From Clostridia bacterium (GTDB lineage: Bacteria > Bacillota > Clostridia > Oscillospirales > CAG-272): a stretch of 42,116 nt of DNA. A program made the position numbers and the translations under genes. The stretch spans positions 1-42,116 of the forward strand of contig JAFQPI010000063.1 in NCBI GenBank assembly GCA_017411805.1. Reading direction: 5' to 3'. The notes below the pieces were generated by a model. The model did not search any database. It was not told the DNA's origin and worked only from the letters and a program-made list of their open reading frames with translations. Below are positions 19,554 through 40,765 of the stretch, in pieces (the stretch's first letter is position 1; each line of letters opens with the position of its first letter).

Positions 19554-19763
19554 TCATTCGCCTGAAAGCTCATCGTCATTCTCGGGCGGAATATTGTTCC
19601 AGAGCGCGAGCATGACGTCGCTTACACATTCCTCGCGATCCTCCTTAATAGCCAGGATACCCGAGGTTACGTAATAACAGAGATCACCGAATTTTTTCTC
19701 GGTCTCCTTGATCGCGTCCTCGTTCCGAGACCAGAATAATTCAATAATTTTTTCGTCGGTCAT
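19554..19763 (-). pseudogene. Truncated ECF sigma factor (locus F)
   Basis: A 69-residue reading frame that matches only the first third of the neighbouring ECF sigma factors: TDEKIIELFWSRNEDAIKET, then EDREECVSDVMLALWNNIPP, i.e. region 2 without its end. It breaks off after IPPENDDELSGE, where intact paralogues continue with region 2.4, the linker and region 4. No partner gene follows. It keeps a good ribosome binding site (AAGGAGG) and the conserved bipartite motif upstream, but no vegetative promoter or TTGCACAAAA dyad is seen. Most likely a deletion remnant; a short regulatory product is possible. Confidence 0.75.
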
Positions 19764-19788
19764 GTACTTTCCTCCTTTTCGAATTTTC

Positions 19789-19828
19789 CCTTCACCTACA
19801 TAGACACGGTTTGAGACCGAAAAGTCAC
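19789..19828 (-). promoter_or_regulatory. Candidate ECF promoter motif of locus F
   Basis: On the minus strand GTGACT (19823-19828), 26 bases, then GGTGAAGG (19789-19796), preceded by an A-rich run. It matches the GTKACC-N25/26-RGTGAAGG pattern found before all sigma genes of this window. Confidence 0.6.
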
Positions 19829-19848
19829 GTTTTTTTATAAAAAAATTT

Positions 19849-20688
19849 TTATTCCCCTTGGATTTTAGTATTTTTAAGATAAGAATTGTAATCGTTATGT
19901 CTCTCTGATATTAAAGCAATATTATCATCGGTTAGATAACCTAAATCATACGCTTCTTCCAATCTCAAAATAGCATCGTCTTTGATAACATAAATTGATG
20001 CAGAATTGCTAAATGATATTGTATATCCCGCTATCTTATATTCAGTCATAACTGCTGCCATTCCGACCGAAACCAATATTACGCAATCATTGATTGTCCC
20101 ATAATATCTGCTATTATGATAATACTGTTCATTAAAGAAACAGTGTCTGACTATCTCATTAGCAAACTGACTTGCTCTTTTATCGGCTAATTCTGATGCT
20201 TCGGATTCGCTATATTTCTTGTTTACATTATTGATATAAAAGTCGTAAAATTCTTTATAACTGTTATCATATACTCTTTTATACCAAAGCTCATCTATTC
20301 TCAGCATCTCTTGAACTGTTAACAGCTCAAGATCATCAACGAACATGGGATAAGTGTATGGGACACCGTTTTCATCTGTTATAACATCCGACATATCATC
20401 CACCGTCCCGACACCCGCGGCGGAGTTGCCTCCCAACGATGCTATTAAATCGCCGAGCTTCGGAATACCGTTACTAAGCATGGGAGCGATTACCGAAAGC
20501 AAAACCATGCACGCCGCAAGGGCGGTGAATTGCTTCCAATACTTGAAGGGTGTCTTCCAAGTGCGGACGGGTTCTGCCGCAGTCATGGACGGCAGCTTCA
20601 GCATTACGGCAACGTCTCCTATGAGGTCGGTGTCGATGTAATCGAGCGCCTCGAGGAGCCTCGTATCCTTGATCATTTCGTTTTTCAT
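19849..20688 (-). CDS. Membrane partner of sigma A, putative anti-sigma factor with one surface module
   Basis: A 279-residue protein. The first 25 residues (KDTRLLEALDYIDTDLIGDV) carry the motif shared by all five partner proteins here. One transmembrane helix follows at about 52-72 (FTALAACMVLLSVIAPML). The outer part (about 120-275) is a single copy of an unnamed module: RIDELWYKR, SRYYGTINDCVILV, IAGYTISFSNSASIYV and RLEEAYDLGYLTDDNI. The ATG at 20688 overlaps the sigma stop codon by four bases (ATGA) and follows AAGGA; in-frame sequence further upstream lies inside the sigma gene. The segment for the outer domain (19849 to about 20340) is clearly AT-richer than the segment for the inner part. 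An anti-sigma role is inferred from position and topology; there is no zinc-binding HxxxCxxC motif. Confidence 0.8.
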   Translation of the reverse strand: MKNEMIKDTRLLEALDYIDTDLIGDVAVMLKLPSMTAAEPVRTWKTPFKYWKQFTALAACMVLLSVIAPMLSNGIPKLGDLIASLGGNSAAGVGTVDDMSDVITDENGVPYTYPMFVDDLELLTVQEMLRIDELWYKRVYDNSYKEFYDFYINNVNKKYSESEASELADKRASQFANEIVRHCFFNEQYYHNSRYYGTINDCVILVSVGMAAVMTEYKIAGYTISFSNSASIYVIKDDAILRLEEAYDLGYLTDDNIALISERHNDYNSYLKNTKIQGE

Positions 20689-21242
20689 AAGATAATTCCT
20701 TCCTTTCTTAAATAATCGGCAAGCTTTGCCCGCGTACGCATCAGAGTCATCTTGATCTTGCTCTCGCCGCAGGAGAATTGCTTTGCGATCTCTGAGGGCG
20801 ACATATCGAACCAATAGCGCATGAGAAAAGCACGCCTTTCAAAGTCGCCGAGGGTACGTAGAAATTTGCTTATGAGCTCGCCCGCGCGGCGCGATTCATA
20901 TTCCTCGGCGAGGTCCGTGCCGTCGTCGAGCATAGAGAGCAATTCCTCGTTAACTATTTGCACCTGCGCGCCGCGCTTCCATGCGTTGTTTGCGCGCGAT
21001 TTGTTTACTGCCTGCCGCCGCGTGACCTCGGAAATATACCCCGGGAGATTCTCGGGCTTTGCGGGCGGGATCGAGTTCCAGAGCGCGAGCATGACGTCGT
21101 TTACGCACTCATCCCGATCTTCTCGCAGACATAAGAAGTTCGACGCTATGTATCGGCAAAGACTGCCGTATTTATTCTCGATCTGACGCAAGGCTTCTTC
21201 ATCCCGTGCGAAAAACAGATCTATTATCTTCTCGTCCTTCAT
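20685..21242 (-). CDS. ECF-type sigma factor A
   Basis: A 185-residue sigma-70 family protein of the extracytoplasmic function type. Region 2 is residues about 4-70 (KDEKIIDLFFARDEEALRQI, EDRDECVNDVMLALWNSIPP), the linker has NKSRANNAWKRGAQVQIV, and region 4 is about 125-180 (ERRAFLMRYWFDMSPSEIAK, GESKIKMTLMRTRAKL). The ATG at 21242 is chosen because GGAGG lies six bases upstream and all paralogues start with MKDE or MTDE; an in-frame GTG upstream lies within the AGTGAAGG motif. It is transcribed divergently from sigma B and coupled to its membrane partner. Confidence 0.92.
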   Translation of the reverse strand: MKDEKIIDLFFARDEEALRQIENKYGSLCRYIASNFLCLREDRDECVNDVMLALWNSIPPAKPENLPGYISEVTRRQAVNKSRANNAWKRGAQVQIVNEELLSMLDDGTDLAEEYESRRAGELISKFLRTLGDFERRAFLMRYWFDMSPSEIAKQFSCGESKIKMTLMRTRAKLADYLRKEGIIL

Positions 21243-21262
21243 ATACTGCCTCCTTTCATGTT

Positions 21263-21301
21263 CCTTCACTTATATAGTAGTAAAAGATTTCCGCCGGTCA
21301 C
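21263..21301 (-). promoter_or_regulatory. Candidate ECF promoter motif of locus A
   Basis: On the minus strand GTGACC (21296-21301), 25 bases, then AGTGAAGG (21263-21270), with a TTTCAAAAAA tract before GTGACC. TATATA directly precedes AGTGAAGG and could serve as -10. Confidence 0.6.
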
Positions 21302-21332
21302 ATATTTTTTGAAAGTTTTTGATTTTTGTCGC

Positions 21333-21366
21333 ATTGCACAAAAGCGAAGATGTTCTTTTGTGCAAT
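21333..21366 (-). promoter_or_regulatory. TTGCACAAAA dyad in the leader of sigma A
   Basis: A 12-bp perfect stem, ATTGCACAAAAG (21333-21344) with CTTTTGTGCAAT (21355-21366), loop of ten bases. It lies just downstream of the vegetative promoter, so it is either an operator or an RNA hairpin. Confidence 0.8.
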
Positions 21367-21369
21367 ATT

Positions 21370-21398
21370 ATGGTATCATATTTCAAGCGGTTTGTCAA
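21370..21398 (-). promoter_or_regulatory. Vegetative promoter of sigma A
   Basis: On the minus strand TTGACA (21393-21398) and TACCAT (21370-21375), 17 bases apart. It is back to back with the sigma B promoter; the two -35 boxes are 13 bp apart. Confidence 0.65.
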
Positions 21399-21411
21399 TG
21401 GAAGATTTACA

Positions 21412-21440
21412 TTGACAAACCCGCGATTTCGTGTTATTAT
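21412..21440 (+). promoter_or_regulatory. Vegetative promoter of sigma B
   Basis: TTGACA (21412-21417) and TATTAT (21435-21440), spacer 17. The stretch 21412-21448 is repeated with one mismatch upstream of sigma C at 24498-24534. Confidence 0.75.
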
Positions 21441-21468
21441 TATAATGAAAGAATCACACCGTAATAAT

Positions 21469-21496
21469 GCACAAAAACCGCCGTGCGGTTTTGTGC
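21469..21496 (+). promoter_or_regulatory. GCACAAAA dyad in the leader of sigma B
   Basis: GCACAAAAACCG (21469-21480) pairs with CGGTTTTGTGC (21486-21496) with one bulged A. It is the most divergent of the five dyads but keeps GCACAAAA/TTTTGTGC. Confidence 0.7.
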
Positions 21497-21541
21497 GACA
21501 TGCCGAAAATTGAAATTTTCAAAAAAACTTTCCGAAAATCC

Positions 21542-21581
21542 GTTACCAAAGAGCCTTGTTTTACGGCTTATAGGATGAAGA
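21542..21581 (+). promoter_or_regulatory. Candidate ECF promoter motif of locus B
   Basis: GTTACC (21542-21547), 26 bases, then GATGAAGA (21574-21581), with TTTCCGAAAA before GTTACC. It ends about 15 bases before the ribosome binding site. Confidence 0.55.
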
Positions 21582-21602
21582 CATCCGAAGGGAGGTGCGC
21601 TT

Positions 21603-22160
21603 ATGAAGGATGAAAAAATTATTGAACTATTTTTTGCCCGCGACGAAGAAGCGATACGCGAGACACAGAATAAGTACGGAAATCTCTGCCTCTATATAGC
21701 CGCAAATTTTCTTGCACTCCGCGAGGACCGAGAGGAGTGCGTCAATGATACTTTGCTTGAGCTATGGCAAAGTATCCCGCCCGAAAAGCCGATAGATCTT
21801 CGCGCGTACGTGGCAACGATCGTCCGCAGCCGTGCAATAGACAAGTCGCGAGCGAACAACGCTTGGAAGCGCGGCGGCAACGTGCAGATCGTCGGCGAGG
21901 AATTCCTCTCTATGCTTGATGACGGATGCGATCTCGCAGAGGATTATGAATCTGTAAGGGCGGGAAGGGTCATAAATGATTATCTCGGAGCTCTCCCGAA
22001 GCCCGAGCGCGCGGTCTTCATCATGCGCTATTGGCTTGACGAGAGCATTACGAATATCTCAGCGCGGACGGGATTTTCCGAGGGGAGGATCAAGATGATG
22101 CTTATGCGTACGCGAAAAAAGCTTGAGGAAAGACTCAGATTGGAGGGTATTACGGTATGA
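21603..22160 (+). CDS. ECF-type sigma factor B
   Basis: A 185-residue ECF sigma factor and a close paralogue of A, C and E. Region 2 holds KDEKIIELFFARDEEAIRET and EDREECVNDTLLELWQSIPP; the linker has DKSRANNAWKRGGNVQIV; region 4 holds ERAVFIMRYWLDESITNISA and EGRIKMMLMRTRKKL. The ATG at 21603 has GGGAGG seven bases upstream. The linker-coding DNA around 21849-21884 is nearly identical to the same part of sigma C, which suggests recent duplication or gene conversion. The stop codon overlaps the start of the partner gene by four bases. Confidence 0.93.
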   Translation: MKDEKIIELFFARDEEAIRETQNKYGNLCLYIAANFLALREDREECVNDTLLELWQSIPPEKPIDLRAYVATIVRSRAIDKSRANNAWKRGGNVQIVGEEFLSMLDDGCDLAEDYESVRAGRVINDYLGALPKPERAVFIMRYWLDESITNISARTGFSEGRIKMMLMRTRKKLEERLRLEGITV

Positions 22161-24448
22161 AAAAGGACACAGCTTTTGAGGACAAGAGGCTTCTTGAAGC
22201 CATAAACCATATAGACTCCCGCTATATTTCCGAGGCGATGGAGTATTACGGTGACCTGCCCCCCGTCGGCGGCTTGCCCGAGAGGGACAAAAGGGTCACG
22301 CGCAAGTCGATAAGATACGCTCTCGCTATCGCGGCGTGCTTTTTGCTTATCGGCGCGGTGATACCGGTGGTGACGAATATTATTCAGAAGTTTTCCGGCA
22401 GCGCGGGGGGAAATCCCGAGGAAACCATTCTATCGCTTGAAGATTTCGTTTATGATACCGAGATCGACACCGATCACGTTATCACCGAGGCAGAGCTTGG
22501 AGCGATAAACAAACTCTGGCTCTATGAATTCGGTAAAAAGTTCGCTGAAACTCCCGAAGAGGCGATGAGGCGCGAGACGAAAGGAGACTTTTACTTCGGC
22601 AGATACGGCAGAACCTTCGTCTTTTACATAAAACAATTTAATATGGATATGGAATTCCGTTGGGGAAAGCACAACTTCGTTATGCCGTGGGGATTATTTT
22701 TCTTTATAAACGGAGATAAGGTATATACTCGCCAGGAGTTCATGGTGACAGATTTATTCACCCAAGAGCATATCGATACTCTGTATGACAGCTGTATGAA
22801 TTTTTATCCCACCTACGTACCCGTAATTACTCTTCCCGAGGGCGATCACGTGCTGAGCTCGGAGGAGCTTGCCGCAATGCAGGAGGCTTTCGACGGCTCG
22901 GTCAAATACAGTATTTTCGCATCTCTCGAAAGCACGATGGGAAGAAAACAGAACAGCTCATATTATTTCGGCAAATTCGGAGACACCGTCATAGTCTGGG
23001 TCAACGAGGTTGACGAGCTGAGACACGGCTTCGAGTGGAGCGGATATAATTTTGATTTTAATTTCGGAAGGCTGTATTTCTACGAAAACGGAAAGTTTTA
23101 TGACCATATCACCGCGGCGGAAAATAATATTATGACCGCGGAGGAGATCAAAGCCTTTTACGATCATTATTCCGAGCGTTTCGTGCCCTTCAACGCTATT
23201 CCCTACACCTGCCTTGAATTTACGGATGGCGTTGAGAAGCTTACCGATGCCGAGATGCGAAGCATAGACGAAGCTTACGCCGCTTGGAAATACGAACAGG
23301 AATACAAATACTATTATGAAATATATATCGAATCCAAGTACACCGAGCAGGAAGCGCACGAAAGCGCGGACAGAGCCGCATACAGACAATTAAGCAGAGA
23401 TAACCGCCACTTCTTCAAAGAGGAGAACTATCAGACCTTCCGTTATTACGGAAAGAAGGGGAATAAGGTGTTCCTTGTTGAAAAGGACCGCTATGCTGAC
23501 TGGAACGTTTTCGACCTCGCGGGATATAAATTCGTCATTGACGGCGGAGCGGGAGATGTTCTCGTCTACAGCGGCGGCGAGTTCACAGATCTGAGTGAGG
23601 CTTATGAAAAAGGAATGATCTCGAAAGAGGACGTCAAGTTCGTATATGAAAGACATCTGGCATATACGGAGTATTTCCGCGACGGAATGGAGGAGATCGC
23701 TCCGCCCGCAAGATTGAAGATCGGCGTGCCTTACAATGAATCACCCATCAAGCTCTCCGAAGAGCTTCAGCGCGAGATCGTATGGGAATATATTGCTGAT
23801 TCGACAAGGCTCGAGGAGGATCTGATGTCTTCCTATGCCGTACGCTGCTACGGCAGATCCGGCGACACCTACGCGGTTATGATCGACGGTCCTTGGTTAT
23901 ACACACAGGCTATGCGTTCTGAAATAGTTGCGGGATATACCTTCAGCTTCAGCGATGGACAGCAGATGTATATATATAAGCAAGGCGAATTCTACAGCCT
24001 CCGCAAGGCGTATGAGCTTGGAATCGTGACCGAGGAGGATATTGTTGCGATCAAGTGGGCGAAGACCGCGCCGTATACCTATGAAACCGCCACCGCGCCG
24101 ATCAAGATCGACGAGAAAGAAGTTGCTCTTTATATCAGCACCTATGCCGTATCAAAAGGCGGACATAAAAAGGGAGCGGTATATTCTATGAGGTGTTACG
24201 GAAAAGCCGAGCGAGGGTATGCGGTTTTCATCGATTGCACCGACAAGGTATACGCGGAAACAAGGACGGTTGAAACAGTCTGCGGATATGAGTTCATCTA
24301 TCCAACCGAGCAGACAATGCTCTTCTGTTATAATTGGAGCGATACTTCAAGTCTTGCAGAAGCCCTTGAAAACGATTATCTTGAGGAATCCGAGCTGAAG
24401 GAAATATATGAAACCTATCGGGCGGAGCATCCGGAGCTATATAAATAG
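22157..24448 (+). CDS. Membrane partner of sigma B with five copies of a surface module
   Basis: A 763-residue protein. Residues 1-30 carry the partner motif (EDKRLLEAINHIDSRYISEA); one transmembrane helix lies at about 53-76 (LAIAACFLLIGAVIPVV). The outer part consists of five degenerate copies of a module of about 105-140 residues, roughly at 108-215, 232-340, 361-503, 531-637 and 650-756. Each copy has an acidic start (LTDAEMRSIDEAY), a beta strand pair with RYYGKKGNKVFLV, an AGYxFxF strand, a YKQGEFYSL-type turn, then EAYELGIVTEEDI. The partner of sigma A has one copy of the same module. I do not know a named domain for it. It probably sits outside the membrane and binds a ligand or peptidoglycan; this is inference. 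Translation is coupled to sigma B (ATGA). Confidence 0.8.
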   Translation: MKKDTAFEDKRLLEAINHIDSRYISEAMEYYGDLPPVGGLPERDKRVTRKSIRYALAIAACFLLIGAVIPVVTNIIQKFSGSAGGNPEETILSLEDFVYDTEIDTDHVITEAELGAINKLWLYEFGKKFAETPEEAMRRETKGDFYFGRYGRTFVFYIKQFNMDMEFRWGKHNFVMPWGLFFFINGDKVYTRQEFMVTDLFTQEHIDTLYDSCMNFYPTYVPVITLPEGDHVLSSEELAAMQEAFDGSVKYSIFASLESTMGRKQNSSYYFGKFGDTVIVWVNEVDELRHGFEWSGYNFDFNFGRLYFYENGKFYDHITAAENNIMTAEEIKAFYDHYSERFVPFNAIPYTCLEFTDGVEKLTDAEMRSIDEAYAAWKYEQEYKYYYEIYIESKYTEQEAHESADRAAYRQLSRDNRHFFKEENYQTFRYYGKKGNKVFLVEKDRYADWNVFDLAGYKFVIDGGAGDVLVYSGGEFTDLSEAYEKGMISKEDVKFVYERHLAYTEYFRDGMEEIAPPARLKIGVPYNESPIKLSEELQREIVWEYIADSTRLEEDLMSSYAVRCYGRSGDTYAVMIDGPWLYTQAMRSEIVAGYTFSFSDGQQMYIYKQGEFYSLRKAYELGIVTEEDIVAIKWAKTAPYTYETATAPIKIDEKEVALYISTYAVSKGGHKKGAVYSMRCYGKAERGYAVFIDCTDKVYAETRTVETVCGYEFIYPTEQTMLFCYNWSDTSSLAEALENDYLEESELKEIYETYRAEHPELYK

Positions 24449-24457
24449 AATGAATTT

Positions 24458-24491: not shown

Positions 24492-24497
24492 AGCTTA

Positions 24498-24586: not shown

Positions 24587-24609
24587 CAGGACGAAATTTA
24601 AAAATCGGC

Positions 24610-24649
24610 GCGACGGCAGGGGTATTTTTTGCGACATATAGGATGAGAG
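24610..24649 (+). promoter_or_regulatory. Candidate ECF promoter motif of locus C
   Basis: GCGACG (24610-24615), 26 bases, then GATGAGAG (24642-24649). It is the weakest match to GTKACC-N26-RGTGAAGG, but the spacing and the ATATAG segment before the second box are kept. Confidence 0.4.
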
Positions 24650-24672: not shown

Positions 24673-25230
24673 ATGAAGGACGAGAAGATAATTGATCTGT
24701 TTTTCGCGCGGGACGAAGAAGCGCTGCGGCAGGTTGAGGAGAAGTACGGAGATCTCTGCAATTACGTTGCCTCGAATTTTCTTTGCATGCGTGAGGACAG
24801 GGAAGAGTGCGTAAACGACGCGCTTCTTGCCCTCTGGAATTCGATCCCGCCCGAGAAGCCCGAAAGTCTTTCGGCTTATATATCGTCGCTTGCGAGGAAT
24901 CTGGCGATAAGCCGCTCGCGCGCGAACAACGCTTGGAAGCGGGGCGGCAACGTGCAGGTGGTGAACGACGAGGTACTTGCCTTGATCCCGGATGATCGCA
25001 GCCTTGCCGATGAGTACGAATCGCGCCTTGCGGGCAGGGTCATCAATGATTTTATCGGAGAATTGAGCAAGAGCGAGCGCAAGGTCTTCGTTTTGCGTTA
25101 TTGGTTTGACGCGAGCGACCGTCAGATCGCGGATCAGACGGGATTCTCGCATTCGAAGATCAGATCCATGCTTGCGAGGTTGCGCAAGAGACTTGCCGAA
25201 AGGCTCGGAAAGGAGGGCATTATAGTATGA
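24673..25230 (+). CDS. ECF-type sigma factor C
   Basis: A 185-residue ECF sigma factor. Region 2 holds KDEKIIDLFFARDEEALRQV and EDREECVNDALLALWNSIPP; the linker has SRSRANNAWKRGGNVQVV; region 4 holds ERKVFVLRYWFDASDRQIAD and HSKIRSMLARLRKRL. The ATG at 24673 follows GGAGGAAAGTCT; in-frame sequence upstream runs through the leader hairpin and gives no sigma-like protein. It is coupled by four overlapping bases to a very large LRR partner. Confidence 0.93.
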   Translation: MKDEKIIDLFFARDEEALRQVEEKYGDLCNYVASNFLCMREDREECVNDALLALWNSIPPEKPESLSAYISSLARNLAISRSRANNAWKRGGNVQVVNDEVLALIPDDRSLADEYESRLAGRVINDFIGELSKSERKVFVLRYWFDASDRQIADQTGFSHSKIRSMLARLRKRLAERLGKEGIIV

Positions 25231-28200
25231 AACAGAAGGACTTCAAGGATTCAAGACTTATTGAGGCATTTGACTATATAGATCCGAAATATATCGCCGA
25301 GGTCGCGGACAGCCTGAAGCTGGCTCCCGCAGGCGGCGCACACGTTCATAGCGGAAGATTCAACAGACGCACCTGGCGGCATATCGTTGCGCTTGCGGCG
25401 TGTCTGCTCCTACTCGGCACGGTCATACCGGTGGTATCGCATCTGATAAGGTATCTTTCGAATGCGGGAACTACCTCGTCCGAGATCACCACGGAGCTTA
25501 CCGAGCCCGAGACCCCTCCCGAGGAAACGACAACTCCTCACCCCGAGAGCACAGAGGAAGAAACGACCACTCCGCCTACCGAGATCACGGAGGAAGAAAC
25601 GACGTCCGAGGAAACCACAGCCGAGGAAACGACTGCAGAAGAAACCACAGCCGAGGAAACGACTGCGGAAGAAACCACAGCCGAGGAAACGACTGCGGAA
25701 GAAACCACAGCCGAGGAAACAACTGCGGAAGAAACCACTTCCCCACACGAGCCCGAATACGACGGCACGCGCGGGCTTGAATACAAGATCAGCGACGACG
25801 GTACGTACGCTATTCTCGTAGGCATCGGCACTTGTACCGATAAGGACATCGTCGTTGCCACGTATTACAACGGCGTGCCCGTAAAGGTCATCGGAGAAAG
25901 TGCCCTGTTTGATGAAAAAGCCGACAGCATAAGAGTTTCCGATATGGTCGAGATCATCGAGGAAGAAGCTCTCGGCGCGGGGAAATATACCTCTTTGTAT
26001 ATTTCGGCGAGCGTTCGTCAACTCGAGGGCGCGTTTTCGAGTTGCGACAGTCTCGAGAAGATCGAGGTCGACAAAAATAATCCGATATACCGAAGCGTAA
26101 ACAACTGTCTGATCAATACTCAAACCAAAGCCCTGGTCCTTGGATGCATTAACAGCGTAATTCCCGCCGACGGAAGCGTGACTAAAATAGGCACCAAGGC
26201 ATTTGAAACCGTAAGATTCACAAATATCACGATCCCCGAGGGCATCACCGAGATCGGCAAAGAAGCCTTTGCGTGGTGTATGATGCTTGAGAGCATCACC
26301 ATCCCCGACAGCGTCAAGATCATAGGCGACTTGGCATTTTCCGATTGCGAAAGAGCCAAAACGGTCAAGCTCGGAAAAGGTGTTGAAAGCATCGGAAACG
26401 GCGCGTTTTACTGTTGCTTCCTCATCACCGAGATCGAGCTGCCGCAGAGCCTCAAGTATCTCGGAGGCAGTGCTTTTGCAAATTCTCGTATCAAAAGCCT
26501 GGTTATACCCGACGGAGTCAAGTTACCCGAAGGTGCTCACAATATGTTCGCCTCGTACAATTACCTTGAGAGCATCGTTCTGCCGAGCGGGATCGAATCC
26601 TTCGGCTCGTGGTTTTTCGGCGGCTGTGAAAACCTCAAGAGCATAACCATACCGAGCAGCGTCAAGGTAATAGGCGATTATGCCTTTTACGGTTGCCGCT
26701 CGCTAAAGGAGATAATCATTCCCGAAGGAGTGACGGAGATCGGTGAGGGCGCATTCAAGCAATGCACGGGGATCACCTCCATTGTCGTTCCCGAGAGCGT
26801 CAAGTCGATCGGGAATAAGGCTTTTGCGGGTTGCACCGAGCTTGTAAGCATCACTCTGCCATCCTCGATCACAGAGATCTCCGCTTCAAGCTTTTCCGAG
26901 TGCGCAAAGCTACAAAGTATCAATATTCCGAACGGTGTCACATCGATAGGAAGTTATGCATTCAGAAGCTGCACGTCACTTGAATCGTTGACCCTTCCCG
27001 ACAGCGTCAAAAGGATCGGCGAATATGCCTTCAACGGATGCTCCGCGCTCAAGGATATCGACCTCGGAGAAGGACTTGAGTCGATCGAAACGTGGGCGTT
27101 TGAAAACTGCACCTCGCTCAAGCAGATCGAATTTCCGGAGAGTATGAAGGAAATAGTGAAATACGCCTTCGTTCGCTCAGGACTCGAGTCGATCAGAATC
27201 CCGAACGGCATCAAGAGGATCAATGACGGCGTATTCGGTGCCTGCGCTTCGCTAAAGGACGTCTCCCTCCCCGAGGGCTTGACCGAGATCGGCTACAACG
27301 CATTTTCATATTGCACCTCTCTCGAAACTCTCGTTATACCGAATACGGTCACTATGATCGGCGGAGGAGTATTCGGGAATTGCACCGCTCTGAAATCGCT
27401 GACCATTCCCTCGAGCGTAAAAGTATTGCAAGGCTCAGAGCACTTTATGAATTGCACTTCTCTTGTCAGCATGACGATCCCCGAGGGGATAACGATGCAA
27501 TTCGAGTATTACAATATGTTTGACGGCTGTACAAGTCTCACCTCTGTCACCCTTCCCCGCGATCTGCCTCGCGTGTCGCGCGAAATATTCAAGAATTGTT
27601 CCGCTCTCACCGAGATCAATTACGGTGGAACCGTTGCCCAATGGAATAATTTGAAGAAGCAGGATAACTGGAACTCGGGCTGTGCGGCAACTGTCGTTCA
27701 TTGCACCGACGGCGACGTTGAAGTAAACGAATACGACGGCTCCCGCGGGCTTGAATATCGTATTGAAGGAGACCACGCCGTTCTTGTAGGCATCGGAACA
27801 TGTACCGATAAGGATATCGTTACGGCAACGACGTATAACGGTGTTCCCGTGACCGAGATCAATGCATTTGCTTTTGAAAACATAAGCAGCATTACTTCTG
27901 TCACGGTTTCGGAGGGAGTTACACATATCGGTCTCGATGCATTCGACAATCTCACCGACCTGCGCGCCGTATATTTGCCAAGCACACTTGAATCTATTTA
28001 CGGCGGCGAAGGAATTGCTTTCTATGAGTGTCACAATATTGAGATAATCTCGGTATCGCCTAACAATCCAAAATTCTATTCAATCGGCAACTGTATGATT
28101 GAAAAAGATTCAGGAACTCTTGTTTTCGGATGCAAGGCCAGCGTTATACCGACCGACGGTAGTATAAAAAGTATCGGAATTTTTGCATTCAGCGGACTGC

Positions 28201-28877
28201 AGTCAATCACAAGCATTGTAATTCCCGAAGGTGTTACCGTGATTGAAGGGTATGCTTTTTCAGGCTGCAAAAATCTCAAAAGCGTCAGTCTGCCAGGTAG
28301 CCTCACGGAAATCAAATGGAGTGCGTTCAGCAGTTGCGAAGCACTCGAAAGCATCCATCTCGGCGACAATGTGATCCACATCGGTAGTGGAGCATTCGGC
28401 GGATGCACATCTCTGCGCGAAGTTAGGCTTCCCTCAAAGGTTGAATCTTTTGGCGAAGAAATATTCGCGGGATGCGCCATAGAAAGCGTCATCATACCCG
28501 ATGGAGTTACCCATCTGCACGGCGGGATGTTTATAAATTGCAAGGATCTCAAAAGAGTAACGCTTCCCGAAGGCATTGAGAATATAGGATTGTATGCATT
28601 TACCCGTTGTACCGCTTTGACCGATATTGATGTGCCTGTAAGCGTCAGAGAGATCGGGCAATATGCTTTTTCCGAATGCACGGCACTTGAGCGGATAACT
28701 ATACCTCGCAATACCGAAAAGATCGATAAGTATGTTTTTTACGGCTGCACTTCTCTCGATAAGTTTTATTTCTTGGGTACGAAGGCTGAATGGGAAACAG
28801 TAAATAAGGGCGAAGGCTGGAACGAAGGCTGCCCATTTACCGTAATTCATTGCTCAGACGGCGACGTTGAAGCATAA
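25227..28877 (+). CDS. Giant membrane LRR partner of sigma C, putative surface sensor/anti-sigma
   Basis: A 1216-residue protein. Residues 1-27 carry the partner motif (KDSRLIEAFDYIDPKYIAEV), followed by one transmembrane helix at about 51-77 (IVALAACLLLLGTVIPVV). Residues about 82-173 are a Glu/Thr linker with ETTAE repeats. Two BspA-type LRR blocks follow, at about 178-830 and 834-1216. Each block starts with a cap GLEY...LVGIGTCTDKDIV...NGVPV, continues with LRR_5 units (IPDSVKxIGxxAFxxC), and ends with GTVAQWN...VVHCTDGD. BspA-like LRRs bind host or matrix proteins in other bacteria. Direct coupling to a sigma factor and the short inner domain suggest that ligand binding outside is passed to the sigma factor inside; this is inferred. 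Block 2 looks AT-richer than block 1. Confidence 0.85.
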   Translation: MKQKDFKDSRLIEAFDYIDPKYIAEVADSLKLAPAGGAHVHSGRFNRRTWRHIVALAACLLLLGTVIPVVSHLIRYLSNAGTTSSEITTELTEPETPPEETTTPHPESTEEETTTPPTEITEEETTSEETTAEETTAEETTAEETTAEETTAEETTAEETTAEETTAEETTSPHEPEYDGTRGLEYKISDDGTYAILVGIGTCTDKDIVVATYYNGVPVKVIGESALFDEKADSIRVSDMVEIIEEEALGAGKYTSLYISASVRQLEGAFSSCDSLEKIEVDKNNPIYRSVNNCLINTQTKALVLGCINSVIPADGSVTKIGTKAFETVRFTNITIPEGITEIGKEAFAWCMMLESITIPDSVKIIGDLAFSDCERAKTVKLGKGVESIGNGAFYCCFLITEIELPQSLKYLGGSAFANSRIKSLVIPDGVKLPEGAHNMFASYNYLESIVLPSGIESFGSWFFGGCENLKSITIPSSVKVIGDYAFYGCRSLKEIIIPEGVTEIGEGAFKQCTGITSIVVPESVKSIGNKAFAGCTELVSITLPSSITEISASSFSECAKLQSINIPNGVTSIGSYAFRSCTSLESLTLPDSVKRIGEYAFNGCSALKDIDLGEGLESIETWAFENCTSLKQIEFPESMKEIVKYAFVRSGLESIRIPNGIKRINDGVFGACASLKDVSLPEGLTEIGYNAFSYCTSLETLVIPNTVTMIGGGVFGNCTALKSLTIPSSVKVLQGSEHFMNCTSLVSMTIPEGITMQFEYYNMFDGCTSLTSVTLPRDLPRVSREIFKNCSALTEINYGGTVAQWNNLKKQDNWNSGCAATVVHCTDGDVEVNEYDGSRGLEYRIEGDHAVLVGIGTCTDKDIVTATTYNGVPVTEINAFAFENISSITSVTVSEGVTHIGLDAFDNLTDLRAVYLPSTLESIYGGEGIAFYECHNIEIISVSPNNPKFYSIGNCMIEKDSGTLVFGCKASVIPTDGSIKSIGIFAFSGLQSITSIVIPEGVTVIEGYAFSGCKNLKSVSLPGSLTEIKWSAFSSCEALESIHLGDNVIHIGSGAFGGCTSLREVRLPSKVESFGEEIFAGCAIESVIIPDGVTHLHGGMFINCKDLKRVTLPEGIENIGLYAFTRCTALTDIDVPVSVREIGQYAFSECTALERITIPRNTEKIDKYVFYGCTSLDKFYFLGTKAEWETVNKGEGWNEGCPFTVIHCSDGDVEA
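25611..25730 (+). repeat. Four 30-bp tandem repeats in the linker
   Basis: Four nearly perfect 30-bp units beginning GAAACCACAGCCGAGGAAAC, plus a partial fifth, encode ETTAEETTAE. Unit number could change by slippage without breaking the frame, which would alter the reach of the LRR blocks from the membrane. Confidence 0.92.
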
Positions 28878-30361: not shown

Positions 30362-30382
30362 AAAACGGATTATTTCCGTTTT
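30362..30382 (-). terminator. Compact terminator overlapping the TIR-TPR stop codon
   Basis: AAAACGGA (30362-30369) pairs with TCCGTTTT (30375-30382); the loop contains the stop codon. On the minus strand the stem ends in TTTT. Rather short, so only a candidate. Confidence 0.45.
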
Positions 30383-34859: not shown

Positions 34860-34891
34860 GTCCACAAATTTGAAAAACTTTTCAAAAAGCT

Positions 34892-34931
34892 GAAACCAAA
34901 ATGCCCTTTTGCGGTACTTGATAAGTGAAGG
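34892..34931 (+). promoter_or_regulatory. Candidate ECF promoter motif of locus D
   Basis: GAAACC (34892-34897), 26 bases, then AGTGAAGG (34924-34931), with TTTTCAAAAAGC before the first box. Confidence 0.55.
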
Positions 34932-34983: not shown

Positions 34984-35559
34984 ATGACAGATGAAAGGAT
35001 AATAGAGCTGTTTTTTGAGCGCGACGAAAAGGCGCTTTCGGAAATACAGGCAAAATACGAAAATTTCAGCCTCACGGTCGCCTCGAATATTTTATCTATG
35101 CGCGAGGACCGCGAGGAATGTGTAAACGACATGCTTCTGGCACTCTGGAATGCTATTCCTCCCGAAAGACCGCGTTCGCTCAAGTCCTATATTGCAAAGA
35201 TCGTGCGCAATCTGGCACTGAAAAAGTCGCGCTCCGAGAACCTATGGAGACGGTGCGTTAATTTCACAGACACCGTAGATGAATTTCTTGAGGAACTCCC
35301 CGACACCTTCGACCTTTGCGAGCAGTTTGAAGCGGCACTCGCGGGAAGGATCATCAATGAAATGCTTGAAACGCTTCCGGGGCATGAGCGGCAGATCTTC
35401 GTGCTCCGATACTATTTCGGCGAGAATGTTGCGGCTGTCGCGGATGATATGGGATTTACCGTAGGAAAGGTTAAATCCATTCTGATGAGAACCCGCAAGA
35501 AGCTTGCGGACAAACTAAAAAAGGAGGGTATTTTGTATGAAAAAGGGAAACAGAATTGA
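34984..35559 (+). CDS. ECF-type sigma factor D
   Basis: A 191-residue ECF sigma factor, the most divergent of the set. Region 2 holds TDERIIELFFERDEKALSEI and EDREECVNDMLLALWNAIPP. The linker differs from the others (KKSRSENLWRRCVNFTDTVD instead of NNAWKRGGNVQIV). Region 4 holds ERQIFVLRYYFGENVAAVAD and VGKVKSILMRTRKKL. The ATG at 34984 has GGAGG seven to eight bases upstream. Its last 23 bases overlap the start of the partner gene, instead of the usual four, so the C-terminus is longer by about six residues (EKGKQN). Confidence 0.92.
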   Translation: MTDERIIELFFERDEKALSEIQAKYENFSLTVASNILSMREDREECVNDMLLALWNAIPPERPRSLKSYIAKIVRNLALKKSRSENLWRRCVNFTDTVDEFLEELPDTFDLCEQFEAALAGRIINEMLETLPGHERQIFVLRYYFGENVAAVADDMGFTVGKVKSILMRTRKKLADKLKKEGILYEKGKQN

Positions 35560-36799
35560 AGACAAGAGGCTTCTCGGCGCGATAGATTATATTGATGACC
35601 GCTTTATTGCCGAAGCCGCACAAAAGATCAAGCAAAGATCCACAGCAACAGCTACGGAAAAAACAAGCAAGAAAAAGCATTTCGGCTATCTTTCGCGTCT
35701 TGCAGCATGCCTTATCATTATGGGAGCAGTGCTTCCGATCGTAACATATCTGCTGCGCCATTATGCCGATCATTCAGACCATCCCGCCGGCACCGCTTCT
35801 CCTCCCGCGGGTATCGCATCCGATAATACATCCTCCGTGCTATACGCCGATGACACCTCTGCGGAAAACGACCCTCTGCATGACGGAAGCAAGGGCTTGA
35901 TCTATCAGATCAACAATGACGGCACGAGCTACACACTTGTATCGCGCGGAAGCTGCAGCACCGCCGAGGTGCATGTTGCCTCAACCTACGACGGTCTGCC
36001 GGTTACCGCGATCGGAGACTTGGCTTTTGCTAATTTTACCGAGTGCGAGTTGCTCATTATCCCCGAAACGGTCACTTCGATCGGCATTGGTGCCTTCAAG
36101 GACTGCAAAAACCTCGAAAGCTGCGATATTTCGGACACTGTTGAAAGGATCGGAGCCAATGCCTTTGAAAATTGTATATCGCTGAATACCCTTTTCCTTC
36201 CCGACAGCCTTGAGGTTATAGAATCGGGATTGTTTAAGAATTGTACCTCGCTGAGAACTGTTGAGGCGCGAAACAAGCTGAAACGTATTGACGCAGGTGC
36301 CTTTGATGGCTGTACTGCGCTTTCCTCGCTGAATTTTAATGGTACAAAAAGCCAATGGGAAAGTGTTTCCTTGGACAATAATTGGAATACGGGCAGCGAC
36401 ATCCGTCGGATCGATGCCAACTCCGGAAGCTTCAGTTTAACTCCTTACGTTGGAAGTGACGGTCTTAAATACAAGTGCGACATTACGGCAACCGTTTTGG
36501 GCATTGGAAGCTGTAAAGAAAAGGATATAGTAATTGCCGACCGTTACAGAGACCTTCAGGTATGTTTCATAGGCAAAGAGGCATTCGCCGATTGCACCCA
36601 AATAGAAAGTGTCAAGATCCCCGATATTATGTGGATCATCGAGGAGCGTGCTTTCGCGGGCTGCACAAATCTTACCGATGTTTACTACCAGGGAACAATC
36701 GATGAGTGGCAATATGTCGTAAAAGAAGCCGATTGGAACAAGGATTGCCCCTTCACGGTAGTCCATTGTCTGGACGGAGATGTTTCTGTCTCTGACTGA
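35537..36799 (+). CDS. Membrane LRR partner of sigma D
   Basis: A 420-residue protein. Residues 1-28 carry the partner motif (EDKRLLGAIDYIDDRFIAEA), and one transmembrane helix lies at about 51-75 (LSRLAACLIIMGAVLPIV). The linker is short and rich in Ala/Pro/Ser, without ETT repeats. From about 115 on there are two LRR blocks with the same caps as in C and E: GLIYQINNDG...VASTYDGLPVTAIG, about six LRR_5 units, then GTKSQWESV; and GLKYKCDITATVLGIGSCKEKDIV, one or two LRR units, GTIDEWQYV...VVHCLDGD. It is the smallest LRR partner here and could represent the minimal sensor. Start codon ATG at 35537, within the sigma D gene. Confidence 0.83.
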   Translation: MKKGNRIEDKRLLGAIDYIDDRFIAEAAQKIKQRSTATATEKTSKKKHFGYLSRLAACLIIMGAVLPIVTYLLRHYADHSDHPAGTASPPAGIASDNTSSVLYADDTSAENDPLHDGSKGLIYQINNDGTSYTLVSRGSCSTAEVHVASTYDGLPVTAIGDLAFANFTECELLIIPETVTSIGIGAFKDCKNLESCDISDTVERIGANAFENCISLNTLFLPDSLEVIESGLFKNCTSLRTVEARNKLKRIDAGAFDGCTALSSLNFNGTKSQWESVSLDNNWNTGSDIRRIDANSGSFSLTPYVGSDGLKYKCDITATVLGIGSCKEKDIVIADRYRDLQVCFIGKEAFADCTQIESVKIPDIMWIIEERAFAGCTNLTDVYYQGTIDEWQYVVKEADWNKDCPFTVVHCLDGDVSVSD

Positions 36800-36813
36800 C
36801 CATAATATGATCA

Positions 36814-36841
36814 GATCCCTCCCGCAAAGGCGGGAGGGATC
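36814..36841 (+). terminator. Terminator of locus D
   Basis: GATCCCTCCCGC (36814-36825) pairs perfectly with GCGGGAGGGATC (36830-36841), loop AAAG. The following sequence is only moderately T-rich. Confidence 0.8.
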
Positions 36842-36866
36842 TTGCGTTATCAATAAGCTGTACCTA

Positions 36867-36895
36867 TTGACAAATCCGTTGCTTCGTGCTAATAT
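36867..36895 (+). promoter_or_regulatory. Vegetative promoter of sigma E
   Basis: TTGACA (36867-36872) and TAATAT (36890-36895), spacer 17. Confidence 0.75.
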
Positions 36896-36904
36896 TATTG
36901 CGGA

Positions 36905-36938
36905 ATTGCACAAAATCCCTCCTCGCTTTTTGTGCAAT
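36905..36938 (+). promoter_or_regulatory. TTGCACAAAA dyad in the leader of sigma E
   Basis: ATTGCACAAAA (36905-36915) and TTTTGTGCAAT (36928-36938), loop of 12 bases. Confidence 0.8.
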
Positions 36939-36980
36939 CATCCAAAAGATTGGCTTTTAGAGAAATATTTCCGAAAAATT

Positions 36981-37020
36981 GTTACCTTTAAGGTGCAAAA
37001 TGCAACTTATTTAGTGAAGG
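36981..37020 (+). promoter_or_regulatory. Candidate ECF promoter motif of locus E
   Basis: GTTACC (36981-36986), 26 bases, then AGTGAAGG (37013-37020), with TTTCCGAAAAATT before the first box. Confidence 0.6.
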
Positions 37021-37046
37021 GACATTTTTGCAAAGGAGGTAAGTCT

Positions 37047-37604
37047 ATGAAGGATGAAAGAATAGTTGAAATGTATTGGGAGCGCAACGAGGACGCCATC
37101 CGCGAGACAGAGAAGAAATACGGCGATTATTGCCACTATCTTGCGGAAAATTTCCTTTCGAGCCGCGAGGATCGCGAGGAATGTATAAATGACGCCATGC
37201 TTGCGCTCTGGAACAATATCCCGCCCGAGAGGCCGAAAAGTCTTTTTGCCTATCTCTCGGGTATAATCAGAAAGCTTTCTGCGGAGCGTTCGCGCTCAAA
37301 CAACGCCTGGAAGCGCGGCGGACAGGTTCAGATCGTCAGCGAGGAGTTCCTCATGATGCTCGATGACGGCAGCGACCTTGCGGCGGACTACGAGGCAAAG
37401 CGAGCGAGCGAGGTCATGAACAGATTCCTCGAGCGTTCGAGCGCGGGGGACAGAACGATATTTGTAATGCGATTCTGGTTCAATGAAAGTTATCGCGATA
37501 TCTGCGCGCGTACAGGCTTTGCCGAGGGCAAGGTAAAGGTTACGGTCTCGCGTATGCGTAAGAAGCTGCGCGAGGCGCTGAAAGAGGAGGGAATCATCGT
37601 ATGA
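37047..37604 (+). CDS. ECF-type sigma factor E
   Basis: A 185-residue ECF sigma factor. Region 2 holds KDERIVEMYWERNEDAIRET and EDREECINDAMLALWNNIPP; the linker has ERSRSNNAWKRGGQVQIV; region 4 holds DRTIFVMRFWFNESYRDICA and EGKVKVTVSRMRKKL. The N-terminus is closest to the truncated sigma F (both have W-x-R-N-E-D-A-I). The ATG at 37047 follows AAAGGAGGTAAGTCT; the reading frame is open far upstream through the leader, but that part has no sigma-like sequence. It is coupled by four bases (ATGA) to a 1054-residue LRR partner. Confidence 0.93.
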   Translation: MKDERIVEMYWERNEDAIRETEKKYGDYCHYLAENFLSSREDREECINDAMLALWNNIPPERPKSLFAYLSGIIRKLSAERSRSNNAWKRGGQVQIVSEEFLMMLDDGSDLAADYEAKRASEVMNRFLERSSAGDRTIFVMRFWFNESYRDICARTGFAEGKVKVTVSRMRKKLREALKEEGIIV

Positions 37605-40600
37605 ATAATTATAAGGATAAAAGACTCCTTGAAATGCTCGATTATTTGGATCCGAAATTTATCGAGGAGGCAGGAAAGTATTATAAACACGTTCCCGTCA
37701 GGGGAATTCCGAGCACAAAGAGCGATCCAAAGAAGCAGATCAAGTATATAGTCGCGCTTGCGGCATGTCTCTTGATGCTTGGCGCGTTCATTCCCATGGT
37801 GACCTATATAATTCAGAATCGCCCGTATATCGGCGGAATCCATGAGACAACGGGCGGCGATACCACTCTCGCGCCCGAGATCACGAGCGAGGAGATCACA
37901 AGCTCTCCCGAGCCCGAGTCATCCGCACCCGAGACCACAGAGCCCGAGCCTACGCACGAGACGACCGAGCCTCTATACGACGGCACGACCGCACCTCGTG
38001 AAGAAACATCCGCTCCCGAGGAAACGACCGCTGATGAAACGACCGCTGAGGAAACGACCGCCGTGCCCGAACCGGAACACGACGGCTCATACGGGCTTAA
38101 GTATCGGGTCGACGGAAATCGTGCCGTTCTCGTCGGAATCGGCACTTGTACCGACACCGATATCGTCATCGCGTCGAAATATAACGGAGTACCCGTGACG
38201 GAGATCGGTGACAGTGCGTTCCTTGGCTGTAACGGAATAAAGAGCGTTCTTATTCCCGAGAGCGTAAGCGCCATCGGCGCACACGCTTTCAGCTTGTGCG
38301 AAAATCTTGAAAGGGTTAATATTCCAAATAAGGTCACAAGTATCGAGACCTATGCCTTCCACGCCTGCAAGAGCCTGAAAGTCATTGATATCGGCAACGT
38401 GACAAAAATTGACGATTTTGCTTTCACTATGTGTGAAAATTTGGAGATGATTAACTTCGGAAAGAGCCTGCAGAGCATAGGTTATCAGGCGTTCATGCAT
38501 TGTTCAAGCCTCAAAGAGCTTACCCTCCCCGATAGCCTTACAACCATAGGTGATTGGGCGTTTGATTGCTCAAGCCTCAGACGTGTAAGCGTCGGCAAGA
38601 ACATCAAAAAGATCGGCGAGTCTGCCTTCCTCATGTGCTCGGAGCTTTCGGAATTCGTCTACCGAGGCACGCGCGAGTCCTGGAAGTCAGTGACGCTTGG
38701 AGAGGATTGGAAATCTCGGCAGATTACATTGATCAAATGCTCGGACGGTGATATCGATCTCAATGCGCCTCCCGAAGATGACGGAAGCCGCGGACTCGTC
38801 TATCAGCTCAGCAAGGACAAAAAGAGCGCGTCACTTGTCGGCATCGGCACCTGCACGGATAAGAATATCGTGATCGCGTCAACGTTTGGCGGTGTTCCCG
38901 TCGTCTCGGTCGCGGAAGGGGTATTCAAGGACGATCCGAATATCACGGGAATTCATATCCCCGCAACTGTCACGACTCTGAACGGACTTTTCTACAATTG
39001 CCAGAACGTCAAGAGTCTGACGGTCGATCCCGATCATCCGAGCTTCTATTCTGCGGGTAACTGTATAATAGATAAGCAAAGCAAGACGATCCTGGTCGGC
39101 TGCAACGGAAGCGTTATTCCGACCGACGGAAGCATACTGAGGATAGGAACATCCTCCTTTGACGGCTGCAACGGAATCACCGAATTGACTATTCCCGACG
39201 GCGTTCTCATTATCTACGATTATGCGTTTGATAACTGTATCAATCTGGGATCGGTAAAAATCCCCGACAGCGTCACAAAGATCAATAGTGCGTTTAACGG
39301 ATGCACGTCGCTCCGAAACGTTGAATTGCCTTCGGAAATGGAATGGGTCGGCGGATTTTCGGGATGTACTTCGATCAGGGAGATCACTTTGCCGAAAAAG
39401 GGAAAGCTTTCTTCGGGAGCGTTCAAGGACTGTACTGCGCTTGAAAGCGTGACCGTTCCTTCGGGTACAACCTCTTTGAACTCTACTTTTGAAGGTTGCA
39501 TAAGCCTTAAGAGCGTGATCCTGCCGGATACTCTGACGAGCATAAGCAAGTCCTCCTTCTTAAACTGCAAGTCACTCGAAAGCATAACGATCCCGAAAGG
39601 CGTAACAGAGTTGAATGATGCCGCGTTCAAAAATTGCCCGAAGCTTTTGACGGTCAATTTCGCGGGTACTGCCGAGGAATGGAGAAGCATCTTCAAGGCG
39701 GTCGATTGGAATCGGAATTGTAATTTCAGCGCCGTCCATTGTTCGGACGGAGACGCGCTTCCGGGTCCCGAATCGGACGGAAGCATCGGGCTTGAATACG
39801 TCTTTGATATCAAAAAACGATATGCAACCTTGATAGGCATAGGCACGTGTACCGATTCCGAGATCATTCTTCCCACAACGTACGGCGGGGTACCCGTAAC
39901 GGCGATCTCACAGGCTTTCGGCGGAAATTTCACAAGCATCGTGATCTCCGACAGCGTAACCGATATAGAAGAGGGCGCGTTTGCCGACTGTCCGAATTTG
40001 AGAAGCATACATTTCCCGTCGAGTGTGAATAACATCCCCGTGGATGGATTATTCAATTGCAAATATCTCGAATCCCTGAGCGTTGATCCCGAAAACCCGA
40101 ATTATACCTCGTCGGGAAATTGCATTATCGATAAGAGAACGGGTATTCTGATACTCGGAACAAATAACGGAACTATTCCCTCCGACGGAAGCGTCAATGA
40201 AATCGGAGCGAAGGCGTTTATTAACCGTTCCGGACTTACGGATATCGTCATTCCCGAGGGCGTGACTTCTATCGGAGAATACGCATTTGCAAATTGCACC
40301 GCACTTAAGTCGGTATCCATGCCGAATAGCTTGATTGAGATCAATCATCATGCTTTTTCGGGTTGTAGCTCACTTAAGGAAATGAAAATAGTGGCGGCAG
40401 TTGCGATCTTTGATTATGCCTTCAAGGACTGCACGGGGCTTGAGAGCATCGTCCTTCCCGATGGCTGCGAGGTTTTGCATGGGATGTTATTTGAAAACTG
40501 TATCGCCCTTAAGACGGTCAAGCTTCCCGCGACGCTGAAGAGTCTTAATTGCCTTTTTGTAAACTGTCCGTCGCTCGAAAGTATAACTCTCCCCGCTACT

Positions 40601-40765
40601 CTGACTCAGATCGATTCAAATCCCTTTGTCGATTGCGATAATCTGAGAGATTGCAGATTCGCGGGTAGCGTCGAAGAATGGAACGCGGTGGAAAAGCCTT
40701 TGTTCTGGAGCCGCGGCTCTGCTTTTACGATGATCCATTGCTCGGACGGAGATGCAACACCTTAA
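37601..40765 (+). CDS. Large membrane LRR partner of sigma E with three LRR blocks
   Basis: A 1054-residue protein. Residues 1-26 carry the partner motif (KDKRLLEMLDYLDPKFIEEA); one transmembrane helix lies at about 49-71 (IVALAACLLMLGAFIPMV). Residues about 80-158 are a Pro/Glu/Thr linker with ETTAE-type units. Three LRR blocks follow, starting near residues 160, 393 and 725. Each opens with GLxYxxxxxxxxLVGIGTCTD and NGVPV or GGVPV, has LRR_5 units, and closes with GT(R/A)EEW...HCSDGD. Some LRR units are irregular (SGTTSLNSTFEGC), suggesting divergence. It is followed by a strong terminator. A sensing role for the sigma E regulon is inferred. Confidence 0.85.
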   Translation: MNNYKDKRLLEMLDYLDPKFIEEAGKYYKHVPVRGIPSTKSDPKKQIKYIVALAACLLMLGAFIPMVTYIIQNRPYIGGIHETTGGDTTLAPEITSEEITSSPEPESSAPETTEPEPTHETTEPLYDGTTAPREETSAPEETTADETTAEETTAVPEPEHDGSYGLKYRVDGNRAVLVGIGTCTDTDIVIASKYNGVPVTEIGDSAFLGCNGIKSVLIPESVSAIGAHAFSLCENLERVNIPNKVTSIETYAFHACKSLKVIDIGNVTKIDDFAFTMCENLEMINFGKSLQSIGYQAFMHCSSLKELTLPDSLTTIGDWAFDCSSLRRVSVGKNIKKIGESAFLMCSELSEFVYRGTRESWKSVTLGEDWKSRQITLIKCSDGDIDLNAPPEDDGSRGLVYQLSKDKKSASLVGIGTCTDKNIVIASTFGGVPVVSVAEGVFKDDPNITGIHIPATVTTLNGLFYNCQNVKSLTVDPDHPSFYSAGNCIIDKQSKTILVGCNGSVIPTDGSILRIGTSSFDGCNGITELTIPDGVLIIYDYAFDNCINLGSVKIPDSVTKINSAFNGCTSLRNVELPSEMEWVGGFSGCTSIREITLPKKGKLSSGAFKDCTALESVTVPSGTTSLNSTFEGCISLKSVILPDTLTSISKSSFLNCKSLESITIPKGVTELNDAAFKNCPKLLTVNFAGTAEEWRSIFKAVDWNRNCNFSAVHCSDGDALPGPESDGSIGLEYVFDIKKRYATLIGIGTCTDSEIILPTTYGGVPVTAISQAFGGNFTSIVISDSVTDIEEGAFADCPNLRSIHFPSSVNNIPVDGLFNCKYLESLSVDPENPNYTSSGNCIIDKRTGILILGTNNGTIPSDGSVNEIGAKAFINRSGLTDIVIPEGVTSIGEYAFANCTALKSVSMPNSLIEINHHAFSGCSSLKEMKIVAAVAIFDYAFKDCTGLESIVLPDGCEVLHGMLFENCIALKTVKLPATLKSLNCLFVNCPSLESITLPATLTQIDSNPFVDCDNLRDCRFAGSVEEWNAVEKPLFWSRGSAFTMIHCSDGDATP

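Follow-up and report, generated by a model that had tools for sequence, protein, structure and literature searches.

Paired ECF sigma factors and single-pass membrane proteins with exchangeable outer parts in a Clostridia genome: candidate anti-sigma partners with a co-evolving contact

Membrane anti-sigma factors that carry an outer sensor are a known kind of system. In Bacillus, RsiV and RsiP (DUF4179) are single-pass anti-sigma factors encoded beside an extracytoplasmic function (ECF) sigma factor, and their outer part is a receptor, for lysozyme in the case of RsiV (PMC6066255, PMC8844934). The RsgI/SigI systems of Clostridium comprise several membrane anti-sigma factors per genome, sensing different substrates (PMC12203970, PMC6056542). 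As to the inner domains, PMC7406223 describes class I anti-sigma domains (RseA, RsiW), which have 101 residues on average and four helices, contact both sigma 2 and sigma 4 and show co-evolving charge pairs in sigma 4, and the class II domain of CnrY, a short inner region that contacts sigma region 4 and region 2. Here we analyse contig C61 (42,116 nucleotides, hereafter the window) of a Clostridia bacterium of probable gut origin (GCA_017411805.1; 2.46 Mb in 73 contigs, 84.7% complete), in which five ECF sigma factors (s1 to s5) are each encoded with an overlapping membrane partner (a1 to a5, Table 1). We argue that these partners very probably bind their own sigma factor, because couplings trained outside this genome rank the cognate partner first for all five sigmas while those of the transmembrane (TM) helix do not.

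All five window sigmas match PF04542 (Sigma70 region 2) in the genome-wide search; the two that were put through hmmscan are above the cut-off for PF04542 and PF08281, and TIGR02937 is also above its cut-off. A single strong hydrophobic helix lies close to the N-terminus in every partner, and a1 and a5 show a second, weak hydrophobic peak. The outer parts of a3, a4 and a5 match PF13306 (LRR_5) above cut-off, which makes them BspA-type leucine-rich repeat (LRR) proteins, and a1 and a2 have another outer module in common (cluster 1 of the clustering described below). The genes overlap by 4 bp in four pairs and by 23 bp in s4/a4. An earlier note made from the letters of this DNA had described these five overlapping pairs, the two kinds of outer region (LRR blocks and an unnamed module) and a sigma remnant, and on all of these it was right; the remnant has 69 codons. 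The inner motif that it had read as KDxRLLEAxDYID is indeed the same in all partners, but it is looser than that.

The arrangement extends over the whole genome. All 41 sigma region 2 matches were examined. A hidden Markov model (HMM) built on the window sigmas identifies 29 of them as complete family members (E < 1e-20), and every one of these overlaps a partner gene on its downstream side; the overlap is 4 bp in 28 cases and 23 bp in the remaining one. The clustered expansion proposed earlier is thus real as an expansion, but it is genome-wide and not a property of a 21-kb stretch. Downstream of the next-best sigma of the genome (E 2e-15), at a distance of 78 bp, lies the gene for a protein of the zinc-finger anti-sigma type in place of an inner-motif partner. 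At locus L012, a distant ECF sigma (5301-5891, - strand) precedes a zinc-finger membrane protein (4338-5222, - strand; zf-HC2, E 1e-9) that represents the conventional class I anti-sigma type, which means that both anti-sigma types coexist in this genome.

The association also holds when the search starts from the partner. A profile covering partner residues 1-72, built from the paired genes but searched blind to the sigma, finds 30 places in the genome: the 29 paired loci and one marginal match that covers the TM part only. LRR_5 occurs in 111 stretches of the genome, hand-grouped to approximately 24 genes, of which nine are partners; the other LRR_5 genes give no inner-profile match at their places. 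The window itself offers an internal contrast, a stand-alone membrane-anchored LRR_5 protein (1333-2961, - strand, E 2e-88) whose end cap resembles those of a3 to a5, but for which no inner-profile match and no adjoining sigma gene were found.

Outside its own genome, where it has 30 matches, the inner profile is found in 25 of 38 relatives. Copy numbers are 21-28 in three that belong to the same genus and no higher than 10 in the rest. A family sigma lies upstream of 118 of the 120 matches examined in relatives, with a 4-bp overlap in 104 and a spacing within 22 bp either way in 114; the two matches without it are L244, where just 55 bp of contig remain upstream, and L249. Conversely, when 18 query sigmas were compared to 84,980 species genomes, at least 557 relatives were confirmed, and among the 80 loci kept (17 from the three same-genus genomes) a partner with a TM helix and the inner motif (by eye) is present at 79, with a 4-bp overlap in 75. 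Both searches place the partners next to sigma genes, and the dispersal away from them that the earlier note had named as damaging to its proposal is absent. At the level of the class, a search of 290 other genomes at E 1e-6 (with up to 20 candidates scored per genome) gives matches in 27, which indicates that the close form of the family is uncommon.

The inner tail of the partners is approximately 40-55 residues long, with the motif RLLxAxxYIDxxxIxEA; across 208 unique partners (226 in the merged set), the median length N-terminal to the TM helix is 42 residues. In the window partners, the inner domain matches no Pfam model above cut-off and no NCBIfam model. We concatenated 201 pairs (seven of the 208 were left out for incomplete sigmas) and submitted the columns to mean-field direct coupling analysis. 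The top inter-protein coupling joins sigma column 131 to inner column 19 with a z of 11.0, compared to 8.3 for the best sigma-internal pair more than four columns apart; it is followed by 138-23, 131-20, 139-23, 142-20, 127-20, 135-23 and then 74-18. Ten shuffled pairings give a maximum z of 4.3, the TM columns 3.9 and the linker columns 3.4. Sigma columns 119-147 correspond to residues 117-145 of the window sigmas, at the start of region 4 according to Pfam and PDB alignments (which we take to be region 4.1 in the RpoE numbering). The couplings run along one sigma helix, with the partner advancing in register, and reach region 4.1 plus one region 2 column (74; residue 72). A contact between inner domain and sigma is thus predicted by co-evolution, and the lack of any predicted contact, by which the earlier note proposed to judge its idea, did not materialise.

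Seven overlapping data sets were compared: the 131-19 pair tops the full, broad, non-redundant and non-LRR sets as well as both halves, and comes second in the close subset. In the window proteins, it places sigma residue 129 opposite partner residue 21 (a1, a3), 22 (a2, a4) or 19 (a5). The charges at the two positions are opposite in 87 of the 201 pairs (52 with a basic sigma and an acidic partner residue, 35 the other way round) and alike in 10 (seven both basic, three both acidic), one side at least being uncharged in the rest. Tree-independent comparisons (n = 17) give 9.7 in the same direction, 0.7 in the opposite direction and 6.7 without difference (median p 0.008, range 0.0005-0.23), and three control columns show no such bias (3.8/2.2, 2.3/4.9 and 2.9/1.9). 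The residues are R-D in s1/a1, E-R in s4/a4 and E-K in s5/a5, from which poor binding of s1 to a4 and a5 is predicted.

Couplings of this kind also recognise the cognate partner. With a training set of 142 pairs from outside the genome, less than 70% identical to any test pair, the cognate ranks first for 18 of the 29 own-genome sigmas, with a mean rank of 2.45 (15 expected by chance); TM columns put it first for one of 29 (mean rank 12.7) and linker columns for three (mean rank 9.1). In three other genomes, the cognate is first in 12/20, 11/19 and 9/14 cases (TM control 4, 2 and 2; linker control 6, 2 and 3). All five window sigmas rank their own partner first of 29. When training is restricted to non-LRR pairs, four of the nine own-genome LRR sigmas rank their partner first and six in the top three, a3 and a5 being first and a4 second; among 29 pooled LRR pairs, 10 are first and 17 in the top three.

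The outer parts, on the contrary, are diverse. Single-linkage BLAST grouping of 207 outer regions gives 67 clusters, 39 of which are singletons. LRR are present in 29 of the 208 partners (local HMM), all but two of which (L143 and L268) come from the own genome or the three same-genus genomes; nine of the 29 own-genome partners match PF13306 at E 0.05 or better. In the surface-sensing family proposed in the earlier note, LRR are thus just one of many outer types. Two own-genome partners have a beta-propeller outer domain (PF09826; L024, 4038-6098, - strand, E 5e-71; L027, 4001-5992, + strand, E 2e-22). At L018 (2097-4613, - strand, 838 residues), the partner combines the inner motif with a membrane protein of many helices that is weakly similar to ABC-2 transporters (E 0.0038), possibly a transporter that would directly control a sigma factor. 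In a3, the linker between TM helix and LRR contains nine tandem [AS]EETT units (25605-25739, + strand) and may vary in length between strains.

Closely related sigmas carry unlike outer parts, for example L016:7550 (LRR) and L167 (a1-type module). A quick tree of 65 close sigmas requires no fewer than seven changes of the LRR label on well-supported branches; the best tree has 12, compared to 19.0 after shuffling. These observations support an exchange of outer parts among related sigmas. In the tree, the five window pairs belong to different groups that have counterparts in other genomes (some forks are weakly supported), which indicates old separate lineages and not fresh local duplicates. 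Of the duplication and swapping by which the earlier note explained the expansion, the swapping is borne out by the sigma tree, while recent local duplication does not apply to the window pairs.

The sigma genes also have a promoter-like motif in common. It is present in 19 of 30 upstream regions of the genome (18 of the 29 sigmas, plus the remnant), whereas 500 shuffles gave 0.88 on average and never more than 4, and in 59 of 110 upstream regions of relatives, compared to 6.0 in shuffles. This shared motif and the individual -10 cores (Table 1) are suggestive of autoregulation through distinct classes of promoter. The -10 core is immediately followed by a conserved RTGAAGG block (for example at 19790-19829, 21264-21302 and 34891-34930), probably around the transcription start. 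The remnant retains its motif; over remnant and promoter, 259 of 265 bp (counted from the alignment) are identical to the start of an intact sigma on contig C41 (L033).

We consider it likely that each pair is a private transmembrane signalling unit, with an anti-sigma partner that lets go of its sigma on an outer signal. The inner tail would bind to the helix that opens sigma region 4 (residues ~117-145 in s1 to s5), probably also touch region 2 (residue 72), and so hold the ECF sigma at the membrane. A signal met by the outer part (BspA-type LRR coil, a1/a2 module, beta propeller or others) would then release the sigma, probably by regulated intramembrane proteolysis; M50 peptidases are present in the genome. 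Once free, the sigma would drive expression of the operon that encodes it, in a putative autoregulation, through an ECF-type promoter with an individual -10 core. Co-varying contact residues would keep the specificity that allows many units to work side by side, and the outer part could be exchanged while inner tail and TM helix stay conserved. Anti-sigma action is the most likely role of the partners and the usual interpretation of genes arranged in this way; the data themselves establish the gene pairing, the conserved tail, the exchanged outer parts, the co-evolved contact and the common promoter-like motif, while inhibition, ligand binding, proteolysis and autoregulation are inferred. As for the earlier claim that LRR proteins control dedicated sigmas, the pairing and the co-evolved contact speak for it, and we infer the inhibition of the sigma and the sensing of a ligand by the LRR.

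Several results weigh against this proposal. The partner is 141-941 bp from the sigma found in four of the 118 pairs of relatives. The tree-corrected test is weak at 74-18 (4.6 to 0.2, median p 0.125), at 138-23 (3.7 to 0, median p 0.125) and for the fully charged rows at 131-19 (4.8 to 0.1, median p 0.06), and the other contacts go in the same direction as 131-19 but fall short of significance. With non-LRR training only, two of the nine own-genome LRR sigmas rank their partner 9th and 11th, and one of the pooled LRR pairs is last. The linker control does better than chance, showing that the couplings hold some phylogenetic signal. Last, 11 of 30 upstream regions of the genome have no promoter motif, the pattern and its spacing were set after looking at the own-genome sequences (so that the relatives are the fairer test), and no regulon was found for the sigmas.

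The sign of the effect is where another mechanism fares best: the bound tail might help the sigma, as a positive factor with FecR-like pro-sigma activity that stabilises or delivers it, and signalling would then turn the sigma on instead of lifting an inhibition. Co-evolution reveals a contact and not its sign, and the tight 4-bp coupling of the genes is compatible with either. However, the contact is predicted to lie over region 4.1 and to reach region 2, the surfaces that meet RNA polymerase, and this favours inhibition; we regard a positive role as unlikely. It is far less probable that the partner is merely a target gene in the operon of the sigma, such as a surface adhesin, without control over it: BspA-type LRR proteins are best known for surface and adhesion roles and a stand-alone LRR membrane protein does exist at 1333-2961, but the inner tail is retained across outer parts from 67 clusters, occurs almost exclusively behind sigmas and co-varies with them residue by residue. 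Equally improbable is that the coupling signal stems from the shared ancestry of paired paralogues and not from physical contact. In favour of this reading, sigma and partner are inherited as a pair, weak pairing information is present in TM and linker columns, and just five or six of the top ten inter-protein pairs lie in the proposed interface in each of six subsets (nine with all data). Against it, the TM and linker columns have the same ancestry and reach a z of 3.9 at most with one and three of 29 cognates first, the tree-independent counts favour basic with acidic at 131-19 (9.7 to 0.7), and the couplings follow one sigma helix in register.

Structure models were made of a1 and a4 from shallow alignments (12 and 8 rows, respectively). 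The outer module of a1 (residues 121-270) is confident, with a predicted local distance difference test (pLDDT) score mostly above 80; it consists of helices and six strands, and fold comparison gave no convincing match. A short helix follows the TM helix in this model. The LRR part of a4 has a pLDDT of mostly 84 or more. The inner regions are modelled with low confidence as helices 6-16 and 21-33 in a4 and as a single helix 9-29 in a1.

Table 1. Sigma genes, partners and promoter-like motifs of the window (-10 cores read by eye).
Feature	Position	Strand	Match or remark
Truncated sigma copy (remnant), region 2 only, 69 aa	19554..19763	-	Sigma-region-2 match, HMM E 2e-31
Promoter-like motif (ECF type), remnant	19790..19829	-	Two-block motif match
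Partner a1 (279 aa): inner motif, TM helix, one outer module	19849..20688	-	No Pfam match; no convincing fold match
ECF sigma s1	20685..21242	-	Sigma70_r2, Sigma70_r4_2
Promoter-like motif (ECF type), s1/a1	21264..21302	-	-10 core CTAC
Promoter-like motif (ECF type), s2/a2	21541..21580	+	-10 core CGGC
ECF sigma s2	21603..22160	+	Sigma70_r2; family HMM 339 bits
Partner a2 (763 aa): inner motif, TM helix, several a1-type outer modules	22157..24448	+	Pfam: nothing above cut-off
Promoter-like motif (ECF type), s3/a3	24609..24648	+	-10 core CGAC
ECF sigma s3	24673..25230	+	Sigma70_r2; family HMM 338 bits
Partner a3 (1216 aa): inner motif, TM helix, Thr/Glu-rich linker, BspA-type LRR	25227..28877	+	LRR_5 E 2e-266
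Promoter-like motif (ECF type), s4/a4	34891..34930	+	-10 core GTAC
ECF sigma s4	34984..35559	+	Sigma70_r2, r4_2
Partner a4 (420 aa): inner motif, TM helix, short BspA-type LRR	35537..36799	+	LRR_5 E 6.8e-38
Promoter-like motif (ECF type), s5/a5	36980..37019	+	-10 core CAAC
ECF sigma s5	37047..37604	+	Sigma70_r2; family HMM 330 bits
Partner a5 (1054 aa): inner motif, TM helix, Thr/Pro/Glu-rich linker, BspA-type LRR	37601..40765	+	LRR_5 E 4.8e-140

Elsewhere in the window, a protein with two TIR stretches (7072-8094, - strand; TIR_2, E 4e-35) and a TIR and tetratricopeptide-repeat protein (30370-32808, - strand) are possibly defence or signalling genes.

Taken together, the pairs suggest a large set of separate surface-sensing channels in one bacterium. 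BspA-type LRR proteins are mostly treated as adhesins; if our proposal is true, some of them would be receptors wired to transcription. The pairing code would explain, in a form open to testing, how one cell keeps 29 related sigma channels from interfering with each other. A fixed inner tail that accepts exchangeable outer parts would amount to a general sensor socket, which could help to assign outer domains of unknown function to sensing. With somewhat less assurance, we lean towards a broader reading, in which the tail is a very short anti-sigma domain of a distinct class (LLxAxxxIDDxxIxEA, docking on the first helix of region 4) that gut Clostridia would use as a universal adaptor. Outer domains of almost every kind, BspA-type LRR coils among them, could then be connected to an insulated ECF channel of their own, with up to approximately 29 channels per genome and pairing by a readable residue code.

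Regarding the known systems, the presence of many membrane partners in one genome recalls RsgI/SigI. The earlier note had drawn this comparison, which stands as an analogy only. Outer parts of RsgI are carbohydrate-binding modules; the sigmas here score as ECF, and the outer parts are LRR and unnamed modules. RsgI_N (PF12791) was found neither in the window proteins scanned, nor in the 29 partners, nor in the genome, while the B. subtilis control matched, and membership of the RsgI family was rejected on these grounds. The single-pass partner adjoining an ECF sigma resembles RsiV/RsiP, and the short helix after the TM helix in the a1 model resembles that described for the DUF4179 of RsiV (PMC6066255); however, DUF4179 (PF13786) is matched by just one of the 29 partners (E 0.024, 15.5 bits compared to a cut-off of 30.1), and the outer domains differ. 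The predicted dual contact with sigma 2 and sigma 4 and the co-evolving charge pairs in sigma 4 are reminiscent of class I anti-sigma domains. Assignment to class I was rejected, given the median of 42 residues before the TM helix and the lack of zinc-finger anti-sigma Pfam matches in the 29 partners. CnrY has a short inner region, as the partners do, and contacts sigma regions 4 and 2, to which the couplings of the partners also point; no PDB chain matches the inner domain in sequence below E 0.5. Our literature searches found no description of BspA-type LRR proteins as anti-sigma factors, in agreement with the earlier note. In this genome, the BspA-type LRR (PF13306) forms the outer part of a3, a4, a5 and six more partners, where it is joined to a predicted sigma-binding tail.

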